From a virus, in the IMG/VR virus record IMGVR_UViG_3300034071_002052, positions 1 through 21,042 of that record: a stretch of 21,042 bases of DNA, one strand, 5' to 3'. Below the pieces are notes generated by a model. The model worked only from the letters and a program-made list of their open reading frames with translations. It was not told the DNA's origin and did no database searches. Made by a program: the position numbers and the translations under genes. Shown here piece after piece: positions 5,490 through 21,042 of this stretch; positions within the stretch are counted from its first letter, which is position 1, and each line of letters starts with the position of its first letter.

Positions 5490-5780
5490 ATGTTAGAAGC
5501 AATTTATAATTCAGTTATCGTTAAGCCTGTTGAGTCTGAAGAGACATCATATGGAGGCATTATTGTCCCTGACTTGGGGAATGAAAAAAACAAACTAGGA
5601 GAAGTAGTAGCAGTTGGAAAAGGTTACTATTCAGCTACAGGAACTTTTATTCCTACTATGCTGAGTGTAGGAGATACAGTTGTATTGCCTACAATGGGTT
5701 TTAGTAAAATGGAATATGAAGGTCAAGAATATTGGCTGGGTCCTGAAAATCAAGTTTTAGCTAAAGTAAATAAAGATTAA
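5490..5780 (+). CDS. groES: Co-chaperonin GroES
   Basis: A 96-residue protein of the bacterial GroES type, nearly the length of E. coli GroES (97). It caps the GroEL ring in the cytoplasm and closes the folding chamber. The core strand NSVIVKP (7-13) matches the GroES signature. The mobile loop that docks on GroEL is present, with the hydrophobic segment GGIIV at 22-26, followed by GEVVAVGKG and the VGDTVVLP strand. It is not a T4 gp31-like protein, which is longer and diverged. It joins groEL one base downstream (TAATATG), so the two are almost surely co-translated as a matched pair. Confidence 0.96.
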   Translation: MLEAIYNSVIVKPVESEETSYGGIIVPDLGNEKNKLGEVVAVGKGYYSATGTFIPTMLSVGDTVVLPTMGFSKMEYEGQEYWLGPENQVLAKVNKD

Positions 5781-5781
5781 T

Positions 5782-7395
5782 ATGAGCAAAGTTATAGAAT
5801 TCGGTCCCGAAGCAAGGGAAAAAATGATTAGTGGTATTGATAAACTAGCTGATGCTGTTACAGCCACTTTAGGTCCTAATGGACGTAACGTAGTTATTGC
5901 TAATGGAGGTATTCCTCAAAGCACTAAAGATGGTGTCACAGTAGCTAAATCAATCACATTAGAAGATCCAATTGAAGAATTGGGAGTACAATTAGTTAAA
6001 CAAGCAGCTATTAAAACTGCTGATAATGCTGGTGATGGTACTACAACATCTACTTTGTTGGCTCGTGAAATGGCTAAACAAGGTCTTAAATATCTTAACC
6101 ATGGTGAAAATGCTGTTGAGATTAAACGTAGTATTGATAAAGCAGTAAAAGAAGTAATTGAACATCTCCGTCATGAAATTAAAGAAGATATTTCAAATGA
6201 GGAACAACTTAAACAAATCGCTACAATTTCAGCAAACAACGATCCAGAAGTAGGTGAATTAATTGCTACAGCGATGCAAAAAGTAGGTCGTGAAGGTGTT
6301 GTATTCATTGAAGAATCTAAAAACGGTGAAACATATCTTGAAACAGTAGAAGGTATGCAGTTTGATAGAGGTTACAAATCACCTTACTTTGTAACTGATA
6401 ACAATTCAATGACTACTACTTTACAAGATGCTTTGATTTTGATTGCAGACAAGAAATTTACTCAAGTAAAAGAGTTGTTGCCTATTTTAGAAGCTGTATC
6501 TAACCAAAATAAACCTTTAGTTATTATTGCTGAAGATGTAGATGGTGAAGCGCTTGCTACTTTGATTGTAAACAAAGCAAGAGGTATTTTGAAAGTTGTA
6601 GCTGTTAAGGCTCCTGATTTTGGAGACCGTCGTAAACTAATTCTTGAAGACATTGCTATCTTGACTGGTGGACAAGTATTCAGTACTGAAAAAGGTATGA
6701 AGTTGGATAAGTTTAGTTGGGATTGGTTTGGTCAAGCTCGTGTTGTGACTGTAGGTAAAGATGAAACTACTATTGTAGATGGTAAAGGTGAATCAGACAA
6801 AATCACAGACCGTATTGAAGAACTTCACAATCAAATTGAAAAAGCAATTTCACCATATGAAAAAGAAAAGTTGCAAGAACGTTTGGCTAAGTTTATTGGT
6901 GGTGTAGCAGTTGTTCACGTTGGTGGGTTTACTGAAGCGGAAATGAAAGAAAAGAAAGATCGAGTAGATGATGCTCTTCAAGCAACTAAAGCTGCTTTAG
7001 AAGAAGGTATTGTACCGGGTGGTGGAATGGCTTTGTTACATGCTCGAAATGGTATTAGTGATCTTAATAGTATTGGTGGTAGAATTGTTTATAATGTTTG
7101 TGCTGAACCATTTAAGAAAATTTTATCTAATGCTGGTTATGAATTAGAAGACATTTACAACGCATTATCAGGAGCAACAGGAGGTGATTATTGGTACGGA
7201 TTCAATTTGTTTGATGAAGATTTTCATGACATGAGAGAAATTGGAGTAATTGATCCAGCTAAAGTAACTCGTACAGCACTTGAAAATGCAGCTTCAGTAG
7301 CTGGTACTATCTTATTAACAGAAGCTGTTATTGTTGACAAACCAGAAGAAAAGAAAGGTGATGAAGGGTTTGGCAATATGATGGGAATGATGTAA
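5782..7395 (+). CDS. groEL: Chaperonin GroEL (phage-encoded)
   Basis: A 537-residue group I chaperonin, a little shorter than the usual 545. Nucleotide-site motifs: LGPNGRNVV (30-38), KDGVTVAK (49-56), GDGTTT (84-89, with the equivalent of E. coli D87), and the hydrolysis aspartate in DDAL (D397, equivalent to E. coli D398). The apical substrate-binding segment is kept as [10 protein letters not shown] (194-203), and GDRRK (281-285) is present. The tail ends GFGNMMGMM, a shortened version of the GGM repeat. The region after GGGMALLH is several residues shorter than in E. coli. All ATPase residues look intact, so it should be active. It is paired with groES and embedded between clamp and clamp-loader genes. 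Confidence 0.98.
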
Positions 7396-14269: not shown

Positions 14270-14896
14270 ATGAAAATTAGTTATGCTATTACAGTCTGTG
14301 ATGAATTAGAGGAGCTTAAACGTCTAGTTAACTTCCTTACCGCTAACAAACATAAACAGGATGAGATAGTAATCTTATTCGATCAAGTTAAAGGTACTCA
14401 AGAAGTATTAACCTACTTAGATACAATTAGAACAATTAAAGGAATTAAAGGACGATTGGTAAGTGACCGCTTTAAAGGCCATTTTGCAGATTGGAAGAAT
14501 TTATTAACAGCAAACTGCACCGGTGATTTTGTATTCCAGATAGACGCTGATGAGCATTTACCTGAAGAGTTTATCGACCTTCTTCATCAGATACTAGAAG
14601 CTAACCCCGAAGTTGATCTGTATTATGTTCCTAGGATTAATACCGTAAGTGGTCTCACCGAAGAACATATACAGAAGTGGGGTTGGAGAGTACAGAACGG
14701 AAGAGTGAACTGGCCTGATTATCAAAGCAGGATCTATAGAAACAGTCCGGAGATTAAATGGAGGAATGCAGTTCATGAAGTAATTGAAGGTCATAAACAT
14801 TTTACAGTACTGCCTGCAGTTGATGAGTTAGCTTTAATTCATCCAAAAACTATTGAAAAACAAGAAAAACAAAACAATTTTTACAACACGTTATGA
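14270..14896 (+). CDS. Glycosyltransferase, GT-A fold (GT2-like)
   Basis: A 208-residue protein with a GT-A start (MKISYAITVCDELEELKRLV) and a metal-binding DXD motif in QIDADEHLPEEF (D92-A-D94). A later NAVHEVIEGH (around 165) resembles the acceptor/catalytic region of GT2 proteins such as LPS core glucosyltransferases. The frame is open from an upstream ATG at 14234, but that start would overlap the previous gene; 14270 has the promoter-like element and gives the expected N-terminus. The middle of the gene is visibly richer in G+C and in AGG/CAG codons than its neighbours, a possible sign of recent transfer. It overlaps the next gene by ATGA. Confidence 0.87.
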   Translation: MKISYAITVCDELEELKRLVNFLTANKHKQDEIVILFDQVKGTQEVLTYLDTIRTIKGIKGRLVSDRFKGHFADWKNLLTANCTGDFVFQIDADEHLPEEFIDLLHQILEANPEVDLYYVPRINTVSGLTEEHIQKWGWRVQNGRVNWPDYQSRIYRNSPEIKWRNAVHEVIEGHKHFTVLPAVDELALIHPKTIEKQEKQNNFYNTL

Positions 14897-15327
14897 TATA
14901 TTGGTTTACAGGACAGCCAGCACACGGCAAATCAGTTTTAGCTAATCTCCTTCATAAGCATATGCCTGATGCTTTTAGAATTGATGGAGATGAAATGAGA
15001 GACTTATTTACAAATAAAGACTACTCAATTAAAGGCAGGGTAGCGAATATTGATGCTGCTCAAAAAATAGCTCATTATCTTCATAATCAAGGTAAAACAG
15101 TTATTGTTTCTTTAGTATCACCATATGTTGATCAAAGGGAAGAATTTAAAGCTACTTTAGGTGAAGGTATTAAAGAAATTTATGTTCATACTTCTGAACC
15201 TAGAGAAAGAGATAATTTTAAGGCTGAGGCTTATGTTGCTCCAAAATCAAAATTCATTGATATTGATACAACAGAAGACACACCAGAACAGTCTTTAGAA
15301 AAAATCTTAAAAGCTATCAATGGATAA
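14893..15327 (+). CDS. APS kinase-like P-loop kinase (CysC-like)
   Basis: A 144-residue P-loop kinase related to adenylylsulfate kinase. Walker A is GQPAHGKS (7-14). The DGD motif followed by R (RIDGDEMRDLF, 29-39) matches the APS kinase DGDN-R box, and VSLVSPYVDQRE (72-83) matches its ISPF/SPY-R element. It is shorter than bacterial CysC (about 200) and has DGDE where DGDN is usual, so the substrate may not be APS. CysC-like kinases also act in capsule decoration, for example with phosphoramidate in Campylobacter. The next genes (phosphatase, nucleotidyltransferase) suggest nucleotide-activated donor synthesis. It ends overlapping the HAD gene by 8 bases. Confidence 0.85.
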   Translation: MIYWFTGQPAHGKSVLANLLHKHMPDAFRIDGDEMRDLFTNKDYSIKGRVANIDAAQKIAHYLHNQGKTVIVSLVSPYVDQREEFKATLGEGIKEIYVHTSEPRERDNFKAEAYVAPKSKFIDIDTTEDTPEQSLEKILKAING

Positions 15328-15661
15328 GAAAAACACTATATTCTGTGATATTGATGGTACTATTTTTAAATATCGTAAGTTTGAAACGTACAAAACAACA
15401 GAAGCTGAACCTATTCAATCAACCATAGAATATTTAAAAGAACAAACAGAAAAAGGGCATATGATTATTTTAACAACAGCAAGGCCTGATGTACTTTTTG
15501 AACATACAGTTTGGGAATTAGGAAAACATTTTGTACCTTATCATAAATTAGTGATGGGTATAGAAAGAGGACCAAGGTACTTAATCAATGATATGGACCC
15601 TGAAAAGGAAGGTAAAAGAGCAATAGCAGTAAATTTAATAAGAGATCAAGGATTTAATTAA
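15320..15661 (+). CDS. HAD-family phosphatase
   Basis: A 113-residue minimal HAD phosphatase. Motif I is D10-I-D12-G-T (FCDIDGTIF), with nucleophile and acid/base aspartates; motif II is the threonine in ILTTARP (50-56); the acidic motif near the end is NDMD (90-93). There is no cap domain, so the substrate could be a sugar phosphate or a nucleic-acid end. Lying between a kinase and a nucleotidyltransferase, it is most simply read as part of nucleotide-sugar or polyol synthesis, similar in layout to the kinase-phosphatase-nucleotidyltransferase trio of heptose activation. It joins the next gene by TAATATG. Confidence 0.87.
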   Translation: MDKKNTIFCDIDGTIFKYRKFETYKTTEAEPIQSTIEYLKEQTEKGHMIILTTARPDVLFEHTVWELGKHFVPYHKLVMGIERGPRYLINDMDPEKEGKRAIAVNLIRDQGFN

Positions 15662-15662
15662 T

Positions 15663-16058
15663 ATGGAAAACTGGAGTAAAAAATTACACGTAGAATCATC
15701 ATTACCTGCTAAACCAGGTCAACATGCAATGTTTGTAGGTAGATGGCAACCACTACATACAGGACATCAAGAACTATTTAAGCGAGCAATGGATGAAGGT
15801 AAAAATGTTTTGATTTGTATTCGAGACATCCAACCAGATGAAAAAAATCCATTTACCGCTCAACAAGTATTAGAAAACATTACTAAGTTTTATCAAAATG
15901 AACCTAGAGTTAAAGTAATGGTTATTCCTGATATTTGCTCTATTGAATTTGGTCGTGGTGTTGGTTATAATATTATTGAACATATTCCACCTACAGCTAT
16001 TGGAGAAATTTCAGCTACTAAGATTAGGGAACAAATGAAAGCCGAAGGTAAATTATGA
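15663..16058 (+). CDS. HxGH nucleotidyltransferase (NMNAT/cytidylyltransferase-like)
   Basis: A 131-residue enzyme of the nucleotidyltransferase alpha/beta-phosphodiesterase superfamily. The nucleotide-binding motif is GRWQPLHTGH (26-35, HTGH at 32-35), and the second signature is ISATKIR (116-122). The DEKNPFTAQQV segment (59-69) is like archaeal-type NMN adenylyltransferase (NadM), where ENPFTAxER occurs. The protein is short and lacks a second domain. It could salvage NAD or, given its neighbours, couple a phosphorylated sugar or alcohol to a nucleotide. The two readings cannot be separated from sequence alone. It overlaps the next gene by ATGA. Confidence 0.87.
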   Translation: MENWSKKLHVESSLPAKPGQHAMFVGRWQPLHTGHQELFKRAMDEGKNVLICIRDIQPDEKNPFTAQQVLENITKFYQNEPRVKVMVIPDICSIEFGRGVGYNIIEHIPPTAIGEISATKIREQMKAEGKL

Positions 16059-16492
16059 GCACCTCAAAAACATATCAAATAAGATACAACACAATATCTA
16101 AAGATGATACTGAAAGATGGAGACTGATTGAGAATGGTAATGAAACATTAGTAGCAAATATTATTATTGATGGTTCTACTTATACTACTAAGGACTGGAT
16201 GGAAGAAATTCAGGATTATAAATGGCATATTACTTGTGAAGGTCATTGTGAAATAAGAAATAATATTGCTTACATTAAAACTATTAAAGAAAAGTCAGTA
16301 TTAAAAAGACATATCCTAAAAGCAGTTTCTTGGAGAGTAATAGGAACTATTGATACTATGATTTTAGGTTGGATTATTACTGGAAATCCTTTAACTGGTT
16401 TAAAGATTGGAGCATTAGAAGTTTTAACAAAAATGACTTTATATTTCCTTCACGAAAGAATTTGGTACAAATACGTTAAAATTAAAAAATGA
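16055..16492 (+). CDS. DUF2061 membrane protein with phage N-terminal domain
   Basis: A 145-residue two-part protein. Residues 1-75 form a small beta-rich domain (YQIRYNT...RWRLIENG...IIIDG...TTKDWM...KWHITCEGHC) that I recall in T4-like marine phages. Residues 84-138 match the DUF2061 membrane domain: KRHILKAVSWRVIGTIDTMI, LGWIITGNPLTGLKIGALE and LTKMTLYFLHERIW, with two membrane segments. In bacteria DUF2061 is often beside or fused to CysC and other sulfate-activation proteins, so finding it two genes after a CysC-like kinase is meaningful. It may anchor the pathway at the membrane. Function of DUF2061 itself is unknown. Confidence 0.88.
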   Translation: MSTSKTYQIRYNTISKDDTERWRLIENGNETLVANIIIDGSTYTTKDWMEEIQDYKWHITCEGHCEIRNNIAYIKTIKEKSVLKRHILKAVSWRVIGTIDTMILGWIITGNPLTGLKIGALEVLTKMTLYFLHERIWYKYVKIKK

Positions 16493-17301
16493 AACTAAAA
16501 GTAGCTCACTTTGATAAACAAGTCTTTGAAGATAAACTTAAACATTTATCTCATTTAGACTTTTCTTTATTTATTGAGACACCTCCACAATCACAAGATG
16601 AGTTATCTCCTCTTAATATTATTTCATTTCAAGAACCAAATGAATACTTTGGTTTACATGATTGGGTTATTCAAAATAAAGATTTATTCAATATAATATT
16701 AACTCAAAGTGATAAAGTATTAAATAATTGTGAATCAGCTATTTACCAACCATTTGGACATACTTGGTTACAACAAGACCAATATGAAAAAGATCATGAT
16801 AAAATATTTCAATTAGCTCACTTACAAGGTAAACTACTTAAAACATATGGTCATTCTTTAAGACATGAAGTAACAGCTAGAAAAAATGAGTTTAGTATTC
16901 CTACTAAGTTTTATGAAACTTATGGAGATAGAAATAATATTGATGATGCTCGTTTAGGTAAAGAATTTATATTTGGTGATTCACAATTTGGAGTAGTAAT
17001 TGAAAATACTTCTCATAGAGGTTATTTTACCGAAAAAATACTAGATTGTTTTTTATTAAAAAATATTCCAATTTATTGGGGTTGCTCGAACATAGGTGAT
17101 TATTTTGATATAGACGGTATTATAACATTTAATAATGTAGATGATTTAGTGTATAAGACAAATCAATTAAATGAAAGTTATTACAAAAATAGAAAAGAAA
17201 TAATTGATAAAAATTGGAATTTAGCTTTAGAGTATGTAAATTACGAACAAAATATAGTTAACACAATCACAAAAATTTTTAAACACAATAATTTAATATG
17301 A
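16489..17301 (+). CDS. GT10-like (alpha-1,3-fucosyltransferase family) glycosyltransferase
   Basis: A 270-residue protein whose C-terminal half carries the GT10 donor-binding signature: FGVVIENTSHRGYFTEKILDC (168-187, with E172, N173 and T181-E-K183), followed by IPIYWGCSNIGDYF (193-206). In this family that region binds GDP-fucose or a related GDP- or other nucleotide sugar. The N-terminal half is diverged and shorter than in cellular enzymes (300-480 residues). It sits just ahead of deoxysugar-forming genes, so the transferred sugar may be the unusual one made by them rather than fucose. Coupled on both sides by ATGA. Confidence 0.87.
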   Translation: MKLKVAHFDKQVFEDKLKHLSHLDFSLFIETPPQSQDELSPLNIISFQEPNEYFGLHDWVIQNKDLFNIILTQSDKVLNNCESAIYQPFGHTWLQQDQYEKDHDKIFQLAHLQGKLLKTYGHSLRHEVTARKNEFSIPTKFYETYGDRNNIDDARLGKEFIFGDSQFGVVIENTSHRGYFTEKILDCFLLKNIPIYWGCSNIGDYFDIDGIITFNNVDDLVYKTNQLNESYYKNRKEIIDKNWNLALEYVNYEQNIVNTITKIFKHNNLI

Positions 17302-18440
17302 AAAAAGTATGGTATGCTCCTAATAAATTTGAGTCATATGGAGAAGAAGAAATCAAAGCAGTAGAAGAATGTTTACGTTCAGGTTGGCTAGCAGGATTTG
17401 GTCCTAAATCAATTGAATTTGAAGAAAAAATAGCTAAACACTTTGGCAAAAAATATGGTGTATTTGTTAATTCAGGTTCATCAGCTTGTTTATTAGCTTT
17501 AGCTAGTTTACAATTACCTAAAGGCACTAAAGTAATCACACCAGCATGTACTTTTTCAACTACATTAGCTCCTATTATCCAATTAGGACTAATTCCAGTA
17601 TTTGTAGATGTTGATTTAAATACTTATGTAGCTAATGTTAATGAAGTATTAGCTGCTATTACAAATGAAGTTAAGGTACTTATGTTACCTAATTTGATTG
17701 GTAACAAACCCAATTGGAAAGTTATTAAGGAAGGTTTAGTAGCTATGGGTCGTGAAGATATTATCCTAATTGAAGACTCAGCAGACACAGTTACTCACAC
17801 TCTAGAAACAGATATTGCTACTACTAGTTTTTATGCATCACATGTTATTACAGCTGGTGGGTCAGGAGGAATGGTAATGTTTAATGATGAAAAATTATGT
17901 AATGTATCTTTACAATTTAGGGATTGGGGACGAATGGGAGACAATTCAGAAATTATGTCTGATAGATTTAATCATAGTGTAGATGGTATTCCTTATGACC
18001 ATAAGTTTTTATATGGAGTGTTAGGTTATAATATGAAATCATCAGAAATGAACGCTGCTTTTGGGTTAGTACAATTAGAACGATTTAAACAATTTGAAGG
18101 TATTAGAAGAGCAAATGTTGAACGTTATATTGAAAATCTTAAGGATATAGAAGAAATTTTATTACCTGATGATTCTATTAAACCTAATTGGTTAGCAATT
18201 CCTTTACAAACAGAATATCGTTATGAGTTACTTAACTTTTTAGAAAATAATAACATTCAAACAAGAGTAACATTTGCGGGTAATGTAACTCGCCATCCTG
18301 TATATAGAGAATATTTACAAGAATTTACTAATTCAGATACTATTATGAAAAATGGTTTTTTGTTAGGTGCCCACCATGGAATGAATACTGAGGATGTAGA
18401 TTATGTTTGTGATAAAATTAAAGAGTTTTTTACTAAATGA
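17298..18440 (+). CDS. DegT-family PLP/PMP enzyme with His replacing the lysine (3-dehydratase-like)
   Basis: A 380-residue protein of the DegT/DnrJ/EryC1/StrS family. Cofactor features: NSGSSA (58-63) for phosphate binding, PACTFSTT (82-89), and E159-D160-S for the pyridine nitrogen. The segment that normally holds the Schiff-base lysine (SFxxxKxITxGEGG) reads SFYASHVITAGGSGG, giving H182 where Lys is expected. Two characterised branches share this change: the CDP-6-deoxy-hexulose 3-dehydrase E1 (AscC/RfbH) and ColD. Both use PMP to remove the C3 hydroxyl from a 4-keto sugar. So this is more likely a sugar 3-dehydratase than an aminotransferase. The RmlB-like gene next door could provide its 4-keto substrate. 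Confidence 0.9.
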   Translation: MKKVWYAPNKFESYGEEEIKAVEECLRSGWLAGFGPKSIEFEEKIAKHFGKKYGVFVNSGSSACLLALASLQLPKGTKVITPACTFSTTLAPIIQLGLIPVFVDVDLNTYVANVNEVLAAITNEVKVLMLPNLIGNKPNWKVIKEGLVAMGREDIILIEDSADTVTHTLETDIATTSFYASHVITAGGSGGMVMFNDEKLCNVSLQFRDWGRMGDNSEIMSDRFNHSVDGIPYDHKFLYGVLGYNMKSSEMNAAFGLVQLERFKQFEGIRRANVERYIENLKDIEEILLPDDSIKPNWLAIPLQTEYRYELLNFLENNNIQTRVTFAGNVTRHPVYREYLQEFTNSDTIMKNGFLLGAHHGMNTEDVDYVCDKIKEFFTK

Positions 18441-19384
18441 AAGTAGTATATGTAACTGGTTGTTTAGGTTTTATAGGTTCCTATGTAACCAAAGCCTGTC
18501 TTGAAAAAGGATGGTATGTGAGAGGTATAGATAAATGTACCTACGCTGCTAATTTAGATTTATTAGATGAATTTAATAAATATCCTAACTTTGTATTTGA
18601 GCAAAAAGACATTTATAATATTAATTTTTTATATGATTGTGATTATATAATTAATACAGCTGCTGAGACCCATGTTGGTAATAGTATTATAAGTAGTGAT
18701 GAATTTATCCATTCTAATATAAATGGTGTTCATAACTTATTAGAGTTAATTAGAAACCATAGGCAAGAAGGTCAACATACCCCTATTTTACTTCATTTTA
18801 GTACAGATGAAGTTTATGGCGACATTGAAATCGGTTTCCATATAGAAACAGATCTACTAAAACCGTCAAACCCTTACTCAGCAACAAAAGCTGCTGCGGA
18901 CCAATTAGTATTAGCTTGGGGTAGGACTTATAATTTACCCTATGTGATTATTAGACCAACTAATAACTATGGTATTGGGCAGTATATTGAAAAATTAATT
19001 CCGAAATCATGTAAGTATTTAAAATTAAATAAAAAAATACCTTTACATAACAATGGGACACCTATTAGAAATTGGTTACATGCTAAAGATACAGCTGAAG
19101 CTGTTATTACTATTATAGAAGCTGAAGTTAAAAATGAAATTTATAACATATGTGGTGGTTTTGAGCAAGACAACATTACCACATGTAAAAAAATAATTAA
19201 AGAATATTTTGGAGATATTGATCCTTATAATTATATTGATGCGTCTTATTCTAGAGTAGGTCAAGATGTAAGATATGCTCTTGATGACTCAAAATTAAGA
19301 TCATTAGGATGGAAACCACTAGCCGACTTTGATAAAGAATTACCTGAAATAATAAAATATTATAAAAACAAATTTATATGGTAG
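18437..19384 (+). CDS. RmlB-like nucleotide-sugar 4,6-dehydratase (extended SDR)
   Basis: A 315-residue NAD-dependent extended short-chain dehydrogenase. NAD-binding GxxGxxG is TGCLGFIG (7-14, with G8, G11, G14). The sequence STDEVYGD (122-129) is the dTDP-glucose 4,6-dehydratase signature with its D-E pair, and YSATK (147-151) is the YxxxK catalytic motif. RPTNNYG (173-179) and EKLIPK follow, as in RmlB. It is a little shorter than RmlB (about 350). It should make a 4-keto-6-deoxy nucleotide sugar, the entry point for the dehydratase and methyltransferase on either side. A 4-epimerase is the main alternative. Overlaps the next gene by 7 bases. Confidence 0.9.
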   Translation: MKVVYVTGCLGFIGSYVTKACLEKGWYVRGIDKCTYAANLDLLDEFNKYPNFVFEQKDIYNINFLYDCDYIINTAAETHVGNSIISSDEFIHSNINGVHNLLELIRNHRQEGQHTPILLHFSTDEVYGDIEIGFHIETDLLKPSNPYSATKAAADQLVLAWGRTYNLPYVIIRPTNNYGIGQYIEKLIPKSCKYLKLNKKIPLHNNGTPIRNWLHAKDTAEAVITIIEAEVKNEIYNICGGFEQDNITTCKKIIKEYFGDIDPYNYIDASYSRVGQDVRYALDDSKLRSLGWKPLADFDKELPEIIKYYKNKFIW

Positions 19385-20478
19385 AATGTAGAATATGTAG
19401 TTCATCTCTTGTTAAGTATAAAACATTTGATAAAGTAGCAAGACAAGTATCTGTCTTAAGAAAAGAACCTTTTAATTATCACGGGCAGGAAATTGAAATG
19501 TATCAATGTCCTAATTGTAACCATTATCAAATAGAGTATGATAATGCTGAAGATTATTATGATGATTATATAATGTTACCAAATGCTGAATCTATTTATC
19601 CTTTTAGAGAGCGACAAATTAATCAATTAGTTTCAATTAATCCTAATGTGACTTCTTTTATTGAAATAGGATGTGGGGATGGTGGTTTTCTAGAACATGC
19701 TAAAAAATTCTATAACCGAGTTGTAGGTAATGAACCTTCTAAAGTTTATAATAAATTAACTGTTGATAGAGGATTTGAATGTCTTTCATCTTACATTACT
19801 AAAGATTTTAAGGTAACAGAAACATTTGATTCATTTTGTGCTAAACAAGTATTTGAACATTTACCTAATCCTAAAGAAACATTACGTAAAATATATGAGA
19901 TGATAAATGATAAAGGAACAGGGTTCATTGAGATACCAAATGGATCTAAAACCATTTATAATCAACGTTACTATGATATTTTTACAGACCATGTTAATTA
20001 CTTTACACCTACCAGTCTATCTAAACTAGTTGAAGAATGTGGTTTTATAGTAGTTAAAGTAGAAGAAACATTTGGGGGTGATTATTTAGAATGCTATATG
20101 AAAAAAGATGTTAATGCTCGAAATATAAAACAAAAACGAGATAATGATCTTACTTTTATTAAAGAAAATTCTAAAAAATATAATAAAATTGGAGCATTTG
20201 GAGCTGGAGCTAAAGGATTTTCTATATTGACTGCTTTAGATGAAAATATACCTTTAAAATTTATTTTTGATGATGACCCTCATAAACAAGGAAGATATTT
20301 ACCAAATACAATCATTCCTGTTTCTAAACCTAAAATTGAAGATATAGAAACTTTAGATTTAATTATTATATTTGCTGCTTCTTATCAAGATGAGATTATA
20401 AATAATTTAAAAACAAAATATAATTTTAAAGGAGATGTAATTGGTTTACAAAACAACACATCAATTATTACTGTTTAA
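19378..20478 (+). CDS. SAM-dependent methyltransferase, sugar C-methyltransferase type
   Basis: A 366-residue protein with the three-part layout of sugar C-methyltransferases (TylC3/NovU type). An N-terminal zinc site has C4-x2-C7 and C44-x2-C47. The SAM domain carries EIGCGDGGFL (96-105), a later KQVFEHLPNP and a FIEIPNG strand. The C-terminal nucleotide-binding domain carries IGAFGAGAKG (271-280) and FIFDDDPHKQGRYLP. Members methylate carbon of 4-keto-deoxysugars. Here the two preceding genes would make just such a substrate. Methylation of another group is possible, since close relatives have varied targets. It joins the next gene by TAATATG. Confidence 0.9.
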   Translation: MVECRICSSSLVKYKTFDKVARQVSVLRKEPFNYHGQEIEMYQCPNCNHYQIEYDNAEDYYDDYIMLPNAESIYPFRERQINQLVSINPNVTSFIEIGCGDGGFLEHAKKFYNRVVGNEPSKVYNKLTVDRGFECLSSYITKDFKVTETFDSFCAKQVFEHLPNPKETLRKIYEMINDKGTGFIEIPNGSKTIYNQRYYDIFTDHVNYFTPTSLSKLVEECGFIVVKVEETFGGDYLECYMKKDVNARNIKQKRDNDLTFIKENSKKYNKIGAFGAGAKGFSILTALDENIPLKFIFDDDPHKQGRYLPNTIIPVSKPKIEDIETLDLIIIFAASYQDEIINNLKTKYNFKGDVIGLQNNTSIITV

Positions 20479-20479
20479 T

Positions 20480-21042
20480 ATGAAACTTAAAAAACGTATA
20501 TTAGAAATAGCCTATAAAAATAAATTAAGTCATTTAGGCTCCTATCTTTCTAGTTTAGAAATTATAGAGGAAATCTATAAAAAGAAAAACCCAGAAGATA
20601 TATTCATTTTATCCTCAGGTCATGCTGCTTTAGCTTTATATGTTGTTTTGGAAGCTTATGAAGGCAAAAATGCTGAGGTATTATTTAAAAAACATGGTGG
20701 TCATCCTCATCGAAATGAAGAAGATGGATTGTATTGTTCAACAGGTAGTTTAGGTTTAGGTATAACTGTTGCTGTTGGTAGAGCTTTAGCTAACCCAAAA
20801 AGAAAAGTATATGTTTTAATAAGTGATGGTGAATCAGCTGAGGGTTCAGTTTGGGAAGCTTTAAGATTTATTCATGACCAAAATATAAAAAATATAGAAG
20901 TTTATGTTAATATTAATGGTTATGCTGCTTATGATAAAATTGATTCAAAATACTTAAGTGATCGTTTATTAGCATTTTTACCTAATATTAATTTAAGGTA
21001 TACATCAGTAAATCAATATCCTTTTTTAAAAGGTATAAATGC
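20480..21042 (+). CDS. Transketolase N-terminal part (split type), cut by window edge
   Basis: An open frame of 187 complete codons runs off the right edge. It matches the first TPP-binding domain of two-subunit transketolases: SHLGSYLSSLEIIEEIY near the start, FILSSGHAALALY, HPHRNEEDG, STGSLGLGI, and the TPP/metal motif in SDGESAEGSVWEA. The motif begins SDGE rather than GDGE, FILSKGHAA reads FILSSGHAA, and GSLGQG reads GSLGLG, so it is diverged. A C-terminal partner gene would be expected just beyond the window. In this setting a two-carbon transfer to a sugar (branching) is more likely than a pentose-phosphate role, but that is inference. Confidence 0.88.
   Translation, partial: MKLKKRILEIAYKNKLSHLGSYLSSLEIIEEIYKKKNPEDIFILSSGHAALALYVVLEAYEGKNAEVLFKKHGGHPHRNEEDGLYCSTGSLGLGITVAVGRALANPKRKVYVLISDGESAEGSVWEALRFIHDQNIKNIEVYVNINGYAAYDKIDSKYLSDRLLAFLPNINLRYTSVNQYPFLKGIN

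Follow-up and report, generated by a model that had tools for sequence, protein, structure and literature searches.

The DNA analyzed here, hereafter the window, is the entire 21,042-base virus record IMGVR_UViG_3300034071_002052 of IMG/VR. Consecutive plus-strand open reading frames with short overlaps at its right end probably constitute a phage cassette that directs synthesis of a C-branched 3,6-dideoxysugar, a reading to which we assign a probability of about 0.72. The window also carries phage replication genes, namely those for a DNA polymerase (phrog_262), a clamp loader, and an exonuclease, and the same compact cassette, probably for a rare two-carbon-branched sugar, recurs in many of its uncultivated large phage relatives. 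A first-pass annotation had proposed a phage pathway of this kind, and the proposal now draws support from gene content, the presence of a second transketolase chain, conservation of the module, its replacement by YerE/JanthE-type enzymes, and related bacterial operons. All four gene identities given in that annotation stood, but the order of its first two genes did not, as the RfbH-like 3-dehydratase of DegT fold (DegT below) comes first and the short-chain dehydrogenase/reductase (SDR) of the 4,6-dehydratase type second. An SDR reductase, absent from the earlier gene list, is a further member of the module.

From gene content, conservation, co-occurrence, exchange of thiamine diphosphate (ThDP) enzymes, and residue patterns, we infer a route from nucleoside diphosphate (NDP)-glucose through 4-keto-6-deoxy and 3-deoxy intermediates to a two-carbon branch at C-4, followed by reduction. 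The host would provide NDP-glucose, most likely dTDP-glucose, which the SDR would convert to NDP-4-keto-6-deoxyglucose. The His-type DegT protein would strip the C-3 oxygen to give NDP-4-keto-3,6-dideoxyhexose. A heteromer of the N- and C-terminal transketolase chains (TK-N and TK-C) would then put a two-carbon unit, probably hydroxyacetyl, on the C-4 ketone, yielding a branched tertiary alcohol, with a ketose or hydroxypyruvate as the presumptive donor. The downstream SDR reductase would reduce the branch ketone, and a C-methyltransferase, confined to this virus, probably adds a methyl group beside the 4-ketone. Transfer of the sugar to an acceptor would fall to the neighboring glycosyltransferases (GT10-like, GT2, and two GT4-type).

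The transketolase gene is cut by the contig end, its last 14 codons lying beyond the window. An overlapping contig (L002/L173), whose overlap with the window spans 11,672 nucleotides (nt) and includes 3 mismatches, supplies the end of TK-N together with TK-C and the SDR reductase (Table 1). The C-terminal partner, whose absence would have refuted the proposal of the first-pass annotation, is therefore present in this contig, with a Transket_pyr match above the Pfam cut-off. TK-N matches PF00456 and, in a profile comparison, the split transketolase 6yak (E 3e-15), and its AlphaFold model (pLDDT 90) aligns with 6yak over all 202 residues (Z 21.8 [VIA], rmsd 2.1). Phage TK-C proteins comprise 155 to 158 amino acids (aa) and stop after the Pyr domain, without the C-terminal domain, whereas the corresponding chain of the split transketolase 6yaj has 341 aa. 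The AlphaFold model of TK-C reached no more than moderate confidence (pLDDT 74), and its fold match lends correspondingly weak support.

Active-site residues are described here in Escherichia coli (Ec) transketolase numbering. The ThDP-binding residues and the equivalents of Ec H26, H66, H100, and H473 are invariant in 65 of 65 phage TK-N and 66 of 66 phage TK-C sequences, and the ThDP-activating Glu of the Pyr domain is kept in all phage TK-C sequences aligned. The equivalent of Ec H461 is Gly in all 66 phage copies and in the copies from cellular clusters (15/15 short and 20/20 long); it is Ala in a Bacteroidota subclade of 167-aa proteins and His in six of nine housekeeping copies. Ec S385 is likewise replaced by Gly in 65 of 66 phage TK-C sequences. 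We take Ec H100 and H473 to bind the donor C1-hydroxyl and Ec S385 and H461 to bind phosphate, as in transketolase structures. Because the C1-hydroxyl-binding His residues are kept and the phosphate ligands are lost, the pattern points to a donor of hydroxyacetyl and an altered partner. The intact catalytic residues and the purifying selection on the cassette genes (dN/dS 0.08-0.28) argue that the gene set is not there by chance.

The same residues bear on the possibility that the branch is instead an acetyl group derived from pyruvate, as with YerE, and that the TK pair acts like DXS or like a two-subunit enzyme of the alpha-keto-acid dehydrogenase type. The DXS reference also has Gly at the phosphate His position, and DXS structures are level with the split transketolase as matches to the TK-C model. 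However, TK-N is closest to transketolases in both sequence and fold, and the His residues that would hold the donor C1-hydroxyl are invariant, so we regard acetyl transfer as unlikely, albeit a serious competitor to hydroxyacetyl transfer.

A TK-C profile scan recovered 313 viral relatives. In 83 distinct TK-C-bearing viral contigs, the counts were 83 for TK-N, 80 for the reductase, 72 for the 4,6-dehydratase, and 67 for DegT, and the dominant gene orders were DegT-SDR-TKN-TKC-reductase (38 contigs) and TKN-TKC-reductase-DegT-SDR (16 contigs). All five module genes were present in 38 of 54 contigs after de-replication. These viral contigs are related to each other and hence are not independent, and the gene-context statistics given below were devised after the data had been seen.

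The position behind DegT is shared by two kinds of ThDP enzyme. We scanned with a DegT profile, kept 80 of 250 relatives, and counted those contigs with enough downstream sequence. In this DegT-anchored set, the slot held the TK pair in 14 contigs, a YerE-like ThDP enzyme in 29, both in none, and neither in 22 (Fisher 1e-4); the de-replicated counts were 9, 15, 0, and 7, respectively (p 8e-4). The reductase accompanied a ThDP enzyme in 34 of 43 contigs versus 2 of 22 contigs without one (19/24 versus 1/7 after de-replication; p 0.004). The swap can be seen directly in two phages, one with a YerE-like gene (L188) and one with TK-N and TK-C (L004), with homologous flanks on both sides (GT2, 83%; GT10, 87%; DegT, 93%; reductase, 57%; next gene, 46%). 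The best match of the phage YerE-like protein is 8rph (566 bits, with acetolactate synthase next at 261), which is JanthE, a characterized YerE-like enzyme (PMC12188165), and the rare CDG motif of JanthE occurs in 7 of 24 distinct phage YerE-like copies. YerE/JanthE-type enzymes occupy the same slot in sister phages. YerE itself, which the first-pass annotation had cited as a known case, is a ThDP enzyme of the decarboxylase type and not a transketolase. In three further contigs (L222, L225, and L233), an RmlD-like reductase occupies the slot, as would be expected if the intermediate is sometimes just reduced.

A gene for PanB (3-methyl-2-oxobutanoate hydroxymethyltransferase) lies right behind the YerE-like gene in some phages (L180:10930-11865, which is over the TIGR00222 cut-off, and L102:12271-13203). 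PanB could produce a 4-hydroxy-2-oxo acid donor; ErwE favors donors of this type (PMC12247030). In general, we incline, at somewhat better than even odds, to the view that the position behind one conserved 3-dehydratase in large T4-like phages is an exchangeable sugar-branching slot. This slot would be filled by a minimal two-chain transketolase, by a YerE/JanthE-type enzyme (sometimes with PanB), or by an RmlD-like reductase alone, diversifying a branched sugar on the target glycan, and the minimal transketolase would represent a new ketone-accepting ThDP subfamily.

For the window DegT, the best NCBIfam model is RfbH (NF011936), at 272.8 bits, and the closest solved relatives are E1 (3bcx, a CDP-4-keto-6-deoxyglucose 3-dehydratase; 208 bits, E 3e-60) and ColD (142 bits, E 2e-40). 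The lysine that binds pyridoxal phosphate (PLP) is replaced by His182, the equivalent of His220 in E1, as in E1 and ColD. This His182 is invariant in the family alignment A3. An aminotransferase role is disfavored because the PLP lysine is His in every distinct phage copy aligned. The segment of the window DegT corresponding to the E1 [2Fe-2S] cysteines (C251, C253, C261 region) contains no Cys. In having the catalytic His and no iron-sulfur (FeS) cluster, the protein agrees with the ColD type, while its sequence is nearer E1 (208 versus 142 bits). Among slot relatives, 35 long forms have the FeS cysteines and 18 short forms do not, and the two forms interchange in the same gene slot of phages; one protein in this slot (L010) is a true RfbH/E1, at 473 bits against a cut-off of 423. 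The DegT region of Synechococcus phage S-B43 has sugar genes and no annotated ThDP enzyme.

The window SDR scored 282.8 bits against the dTDP-glucose model TIGR01181 versus 58 bits against the CDP-glucose model, and its ten best matches in PDB are all dTDP-glucose 4,6-dehydratases (top match 2hun, 217 bits). Its catalytic residues are kept in relatives (TDE in 57/58 and YxxxK in 58/58). The SDR therefore appears to be of the dTDP type and not an RfbG (CDP-glucose 4,6-dehydratase). Judging from this similarity, the nucleotide is most likely dTDP, although GDP is possible given a strong gene of the GDP-mannose-dehydratase family in one relative (G001).

The C-methyltransferase is over the cut-off for both PF13489 (Methyltransf_23) and PF08484 (Methyltransf_14), and its nearest solved structures are the sugar 3-C-methyltransferases MtmC (4rv9) and TcaB9 (4e2x). 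It occurs in only 1 of the 83 module contigs, and a single-sequence scan of IMG/VR found it in this virus alone. We thus rejected it as a core part of the module, a correction to the first-pass annotation, which had listed it with the other three genes. The GT10-like protein falls under the PF00852 cut-off (18.9 versus 23.9 bits), and in its family alignment (A4) the motif ...ENTSHRGYFTEKILD... is invariant. Its gene adjoins DegT in many relatives, and the protein is a candidate transferase for the cassette product.

No nucleotidyltransferase was found in the window, and of 16 large related contigs, all possibly incomplete, 15 lacked PF00483 and one had a marginal partial match. Three large contigs that have DegT and the TK pair with no adjacent SDR contain no 4,6-dehydratase anywhere. 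Both absences suggest that the host probably supplies the precursors. The first-pass annotation had spoken of a phage carrying the whole set of genes and had named a nucleotidyltransferase beyond the window as a check; the whole set is not carried, since no such gene was found, and several relatives lack the 4,6-dehydratase as well.

Cellular genomes carry related gene sets. A Patescibacteria operon (L154, 4722-10555) has the order RfbF-RfbG-TKN-TKC-SDRred-RfbH, and five further loci (L151, L155, L158, L159, and L161) have subsets of this CDP-deoxysugar gene set. In Actinomarina (L020), RfbG (above its cut-off) and RfbF adjoin the TK pair. The Patescibacteria operon, whose TK-C is full-length (311 aa), looks like a complete cellular counterpart of the pathway. 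In an Omnitrophota locus (L029:1173-3873), a relative of the phage reductase (183 bits) comes after a YerE-like gene, with a TK pair about 6 to 7 kb further on. Some genomes bearing the TK pair also have a separate, longer transketolase. In the TK-C tree, in which some deep branches are weak, the short forms cluster, the phage copies fall within this cluster, and most housekeeping copies lie outside it.

Several observations weigh against a pathway leading to a C-branched 3,6-dideoxysugar. Two of the similarity scores fall short of the NCBIfam cut-offs: the window SDR is under the TIGR01181 equivalog cut-off (365 bits), and the window DegT is below the RfbH cut-off (423 bits) and lacks the E1 iron-sulfur cysteines. 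The loss of phosphate-binding residues would also fit other changes of donor or acceptor. Under stricter de-replication (18 contigs), the exclusion reached only p 0.08, and neither the exclusion nor the reductase linkage was significant; moreover, one TK-anchored phage (L102) has the TK pair and a YerE-like gene together. About 16 of the 83 phage contigs have no DegT within 9 kb (some are truncated), and many short-TK relatives in Patescibacteria and Omnitrophota have no RfbH or RfbG nearby. As judged from these neighborhoods, short TK pairs with other substrates exist, and 3-deoxygenation may not be universal in the cassette.

These last observations lead to an alternative in which the substrate of the TK pair is a 4-keto-6-deoxy sugar that has not lost its C-3 oxygen (or something other than a 3,6-dideoxyhexose) and DegT helps to make a second sugar in the same glycan. 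The phage contigs without a nearby DegT fit this alternative, as do two bacterial clusters (L158 and L159) with RfbG and the TK pair in which RfbH was not seen nearby and many Patescibacteria short-TK relatives that stand beside generic SDRs only. On the other hand, many phages have DegT next to the TK genes, the reading frames overlapping by 4 nt, and the TK pair shares the slot behind DegT with YerE-like enzymes, the known acceptor of YerE being CDP-3,6-dideoxy-4-keto-glucose (PMC12247030). We therefore consider an acceptor that keeps its C-3 oxygen rather improbable for the phage cassette.

An ordinary auxiliary metabolic transketolase for pentose phosphates or nucleotides, lying beside an unrelated sugar cluster, is very improbable. 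Phages do carry pentose-phosphate genes, and the fold is that of a transketolase, but the constant association with one set of four sugar genes across several arrangements, the loss of phosphate ligands, and the separation from housekeeping copies of the same bacterial genomes led us to reject a pentose-phosphate role, against which the exchange with YerE-like enzymes also argues. That the genes are broken or drifting remnants of a host O-antigen locus, as a metagenomic fragment with a cut last gene might suggest, is hardly credible and is already contradicted by the conservation data, since the cut is only the contig end, all active-site residues are kept under the purifying selection noted above, and the genes occur in hundreds of viral contigs.

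Table 1. Genes of the putative sugar-branching cassette in the window and in the overlapping contig L002
Feature	Sequence	Coordinates	Strand	Length	Evidence and remarks
GT10-like glycosyltransferase	Window	16489..17301	+		PF00852 weak match; 4-nt overlap with DegT gene
RfbH/E1-like pyridoxamine phosphate (PMP)-dependent 3-dehydratase, DegT fold	Window	17298..18440	+		NF011936 273 bits; His182
dTDP-glucose 4,6-dehydratase-like SDR, RmlB type	Window	18437..19384	+		TIGR01181 283 bits
Sugar C-methyltransferase	Window	19378..20478	+		Methyltransf_23 and Methyltransf_14
Split, shortened transketolase N-chain (ThDP-binding domain)	Window	20480..21042 (ATG at 20480)	+		PF00456; cut by contig end
TK-N	L002	10007-10612			
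TK-C	L002	10609-11076		155 aa	Transket_pyr 46 bits (cut-off 27); 4-nt overlap with TK-N
SDR reductase	L002	11073-11849		258 aa	Epimerase 71 bits

Elsewhere in the window, reading of the sequence identified GroES-like (5490-5780) and GroEL-like (5782-7395) genes in tandem. Three small genes between the glycosyltransferases (14893-16058) encode an adenylylsulfate-kinase-like P-loop kinase, a HAD phosphatase, and a cytidylyltransferase-like protein; the first and last of these are also found in L003 and are missing from L004 to L006. PADLOC gave no meaningful defense match. With regard to a role in DNA modification, 5 of 16 related contigs have a thymidylate-synthase family member, which may be of either the ordinary or the hydroxymethylating type.

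No close TK pair was found in isolated phages among 50,697 records, the best matches having <36% identity and many lying in short, bacterial-looking records. One isolated phage, Campylobacter phage CP21, encodes a short putative transketolase (CP21_104; L255:8001-8450) with 28% identity to the phage TK-C, next to a chaperonin gene and a gene annotated as N-acetylneuraminate lyase, and offers a cultivable lead. Three loci binned as Thaumarchaeota or Maricaulis (L013, L015, and L016) have a phage-type module with phage-type glycosyltransferases and are nested in the phage clade; they are probably viral contigs in metagenome-assembled genomes.

Branched sugars are uncommon and difficult to obtain by chemical synthesis. 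The minimal pair (about 200 plus 155 aa), conserved across hundreds of viral contigs as well as O-antigen-like operons of bacteria, provides candidate tertiary-alcohol-forming enzymes. The cassette points to phages that produce and vary an unusual sugar of their own, which may serve to alter host surface recognition, to coat virions, or to modify DNA. Because two unrelated ThDP classes swap at one position, the function is directly testable.

A 2025 review distinguishes three sugar-branching ThDP classes, namely YerE-like enzymes, the alpha-keto-acid dehydrogenase type, and split transketolases, and reports split transketolases that may branch sugars from Streptomyces only, none of them tested in vitro (PMC12247030). 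Our literature search for a transketolase with an RfbH, CDP-glucose, or O-antigen cluster found no paper linking them; its coverage was incomplete, and novelty is accordingly provisional. Cyanophage and jumbo-phage surface-glycan clusters resemble the cassette as phage-encoded islands of sugar-nucleotide and glycosyltransferase genes, and the text of a jumbo-phage survey of such clusters contains no branched-sugar ThDP module and no mention of transketolase or aminotransferase (PMC7824862).

DegT shares its fold and the replacement of Lys by His with RfbH/E1 and ColD, resembling ColD in lacking the [2Fe-2S] cysteines while being nearer E1. The split transketolase of Carboxydothermus hydrogenoformans (6yaj/6yak) likewise has two chains, the ThDP-binding residues, and the N-chain fold, whereas the phage TK-C lacks the C-terminal domain (155 versus 341 aa) and has Gly at the H461 and S385 equivalents. 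The split-gene transketolases suggested to branch the miharamycin and amipurimycin sugars in Streptomyces (PMC12247030) share the split and a proposed hydroxyacetyl transfer to a keto sugar, but they belong to streptomycete antibiotic clusters, whereas the phage pair has RfbH-like and RmlB-like gene neighbors and a TK-C of 155 aa that stops at the Pyr domain. The yersiniose- and erwiniose-type pathways of bacterial O-antigens (RfbF, RfbG, RfbH, YerE or ErwE, and a reductase) have in common with the cassette a 3-dehydratase of the RfbH/E1 kind, a ThDP enzyme that would add the carbon branch to a 3,6-dideoxy-4-keto sugar, and a reductase. They differ in that the phage-encoded version has a split, shortened transketolase in place of YerE, a dTDP-type dehydratase, and no cytidylyltransferase that we could find. 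The type of pathway is thus already known, and what appears, provisionally, to be new is its encoding by phages and the minimal transketolase in the position of YerE.

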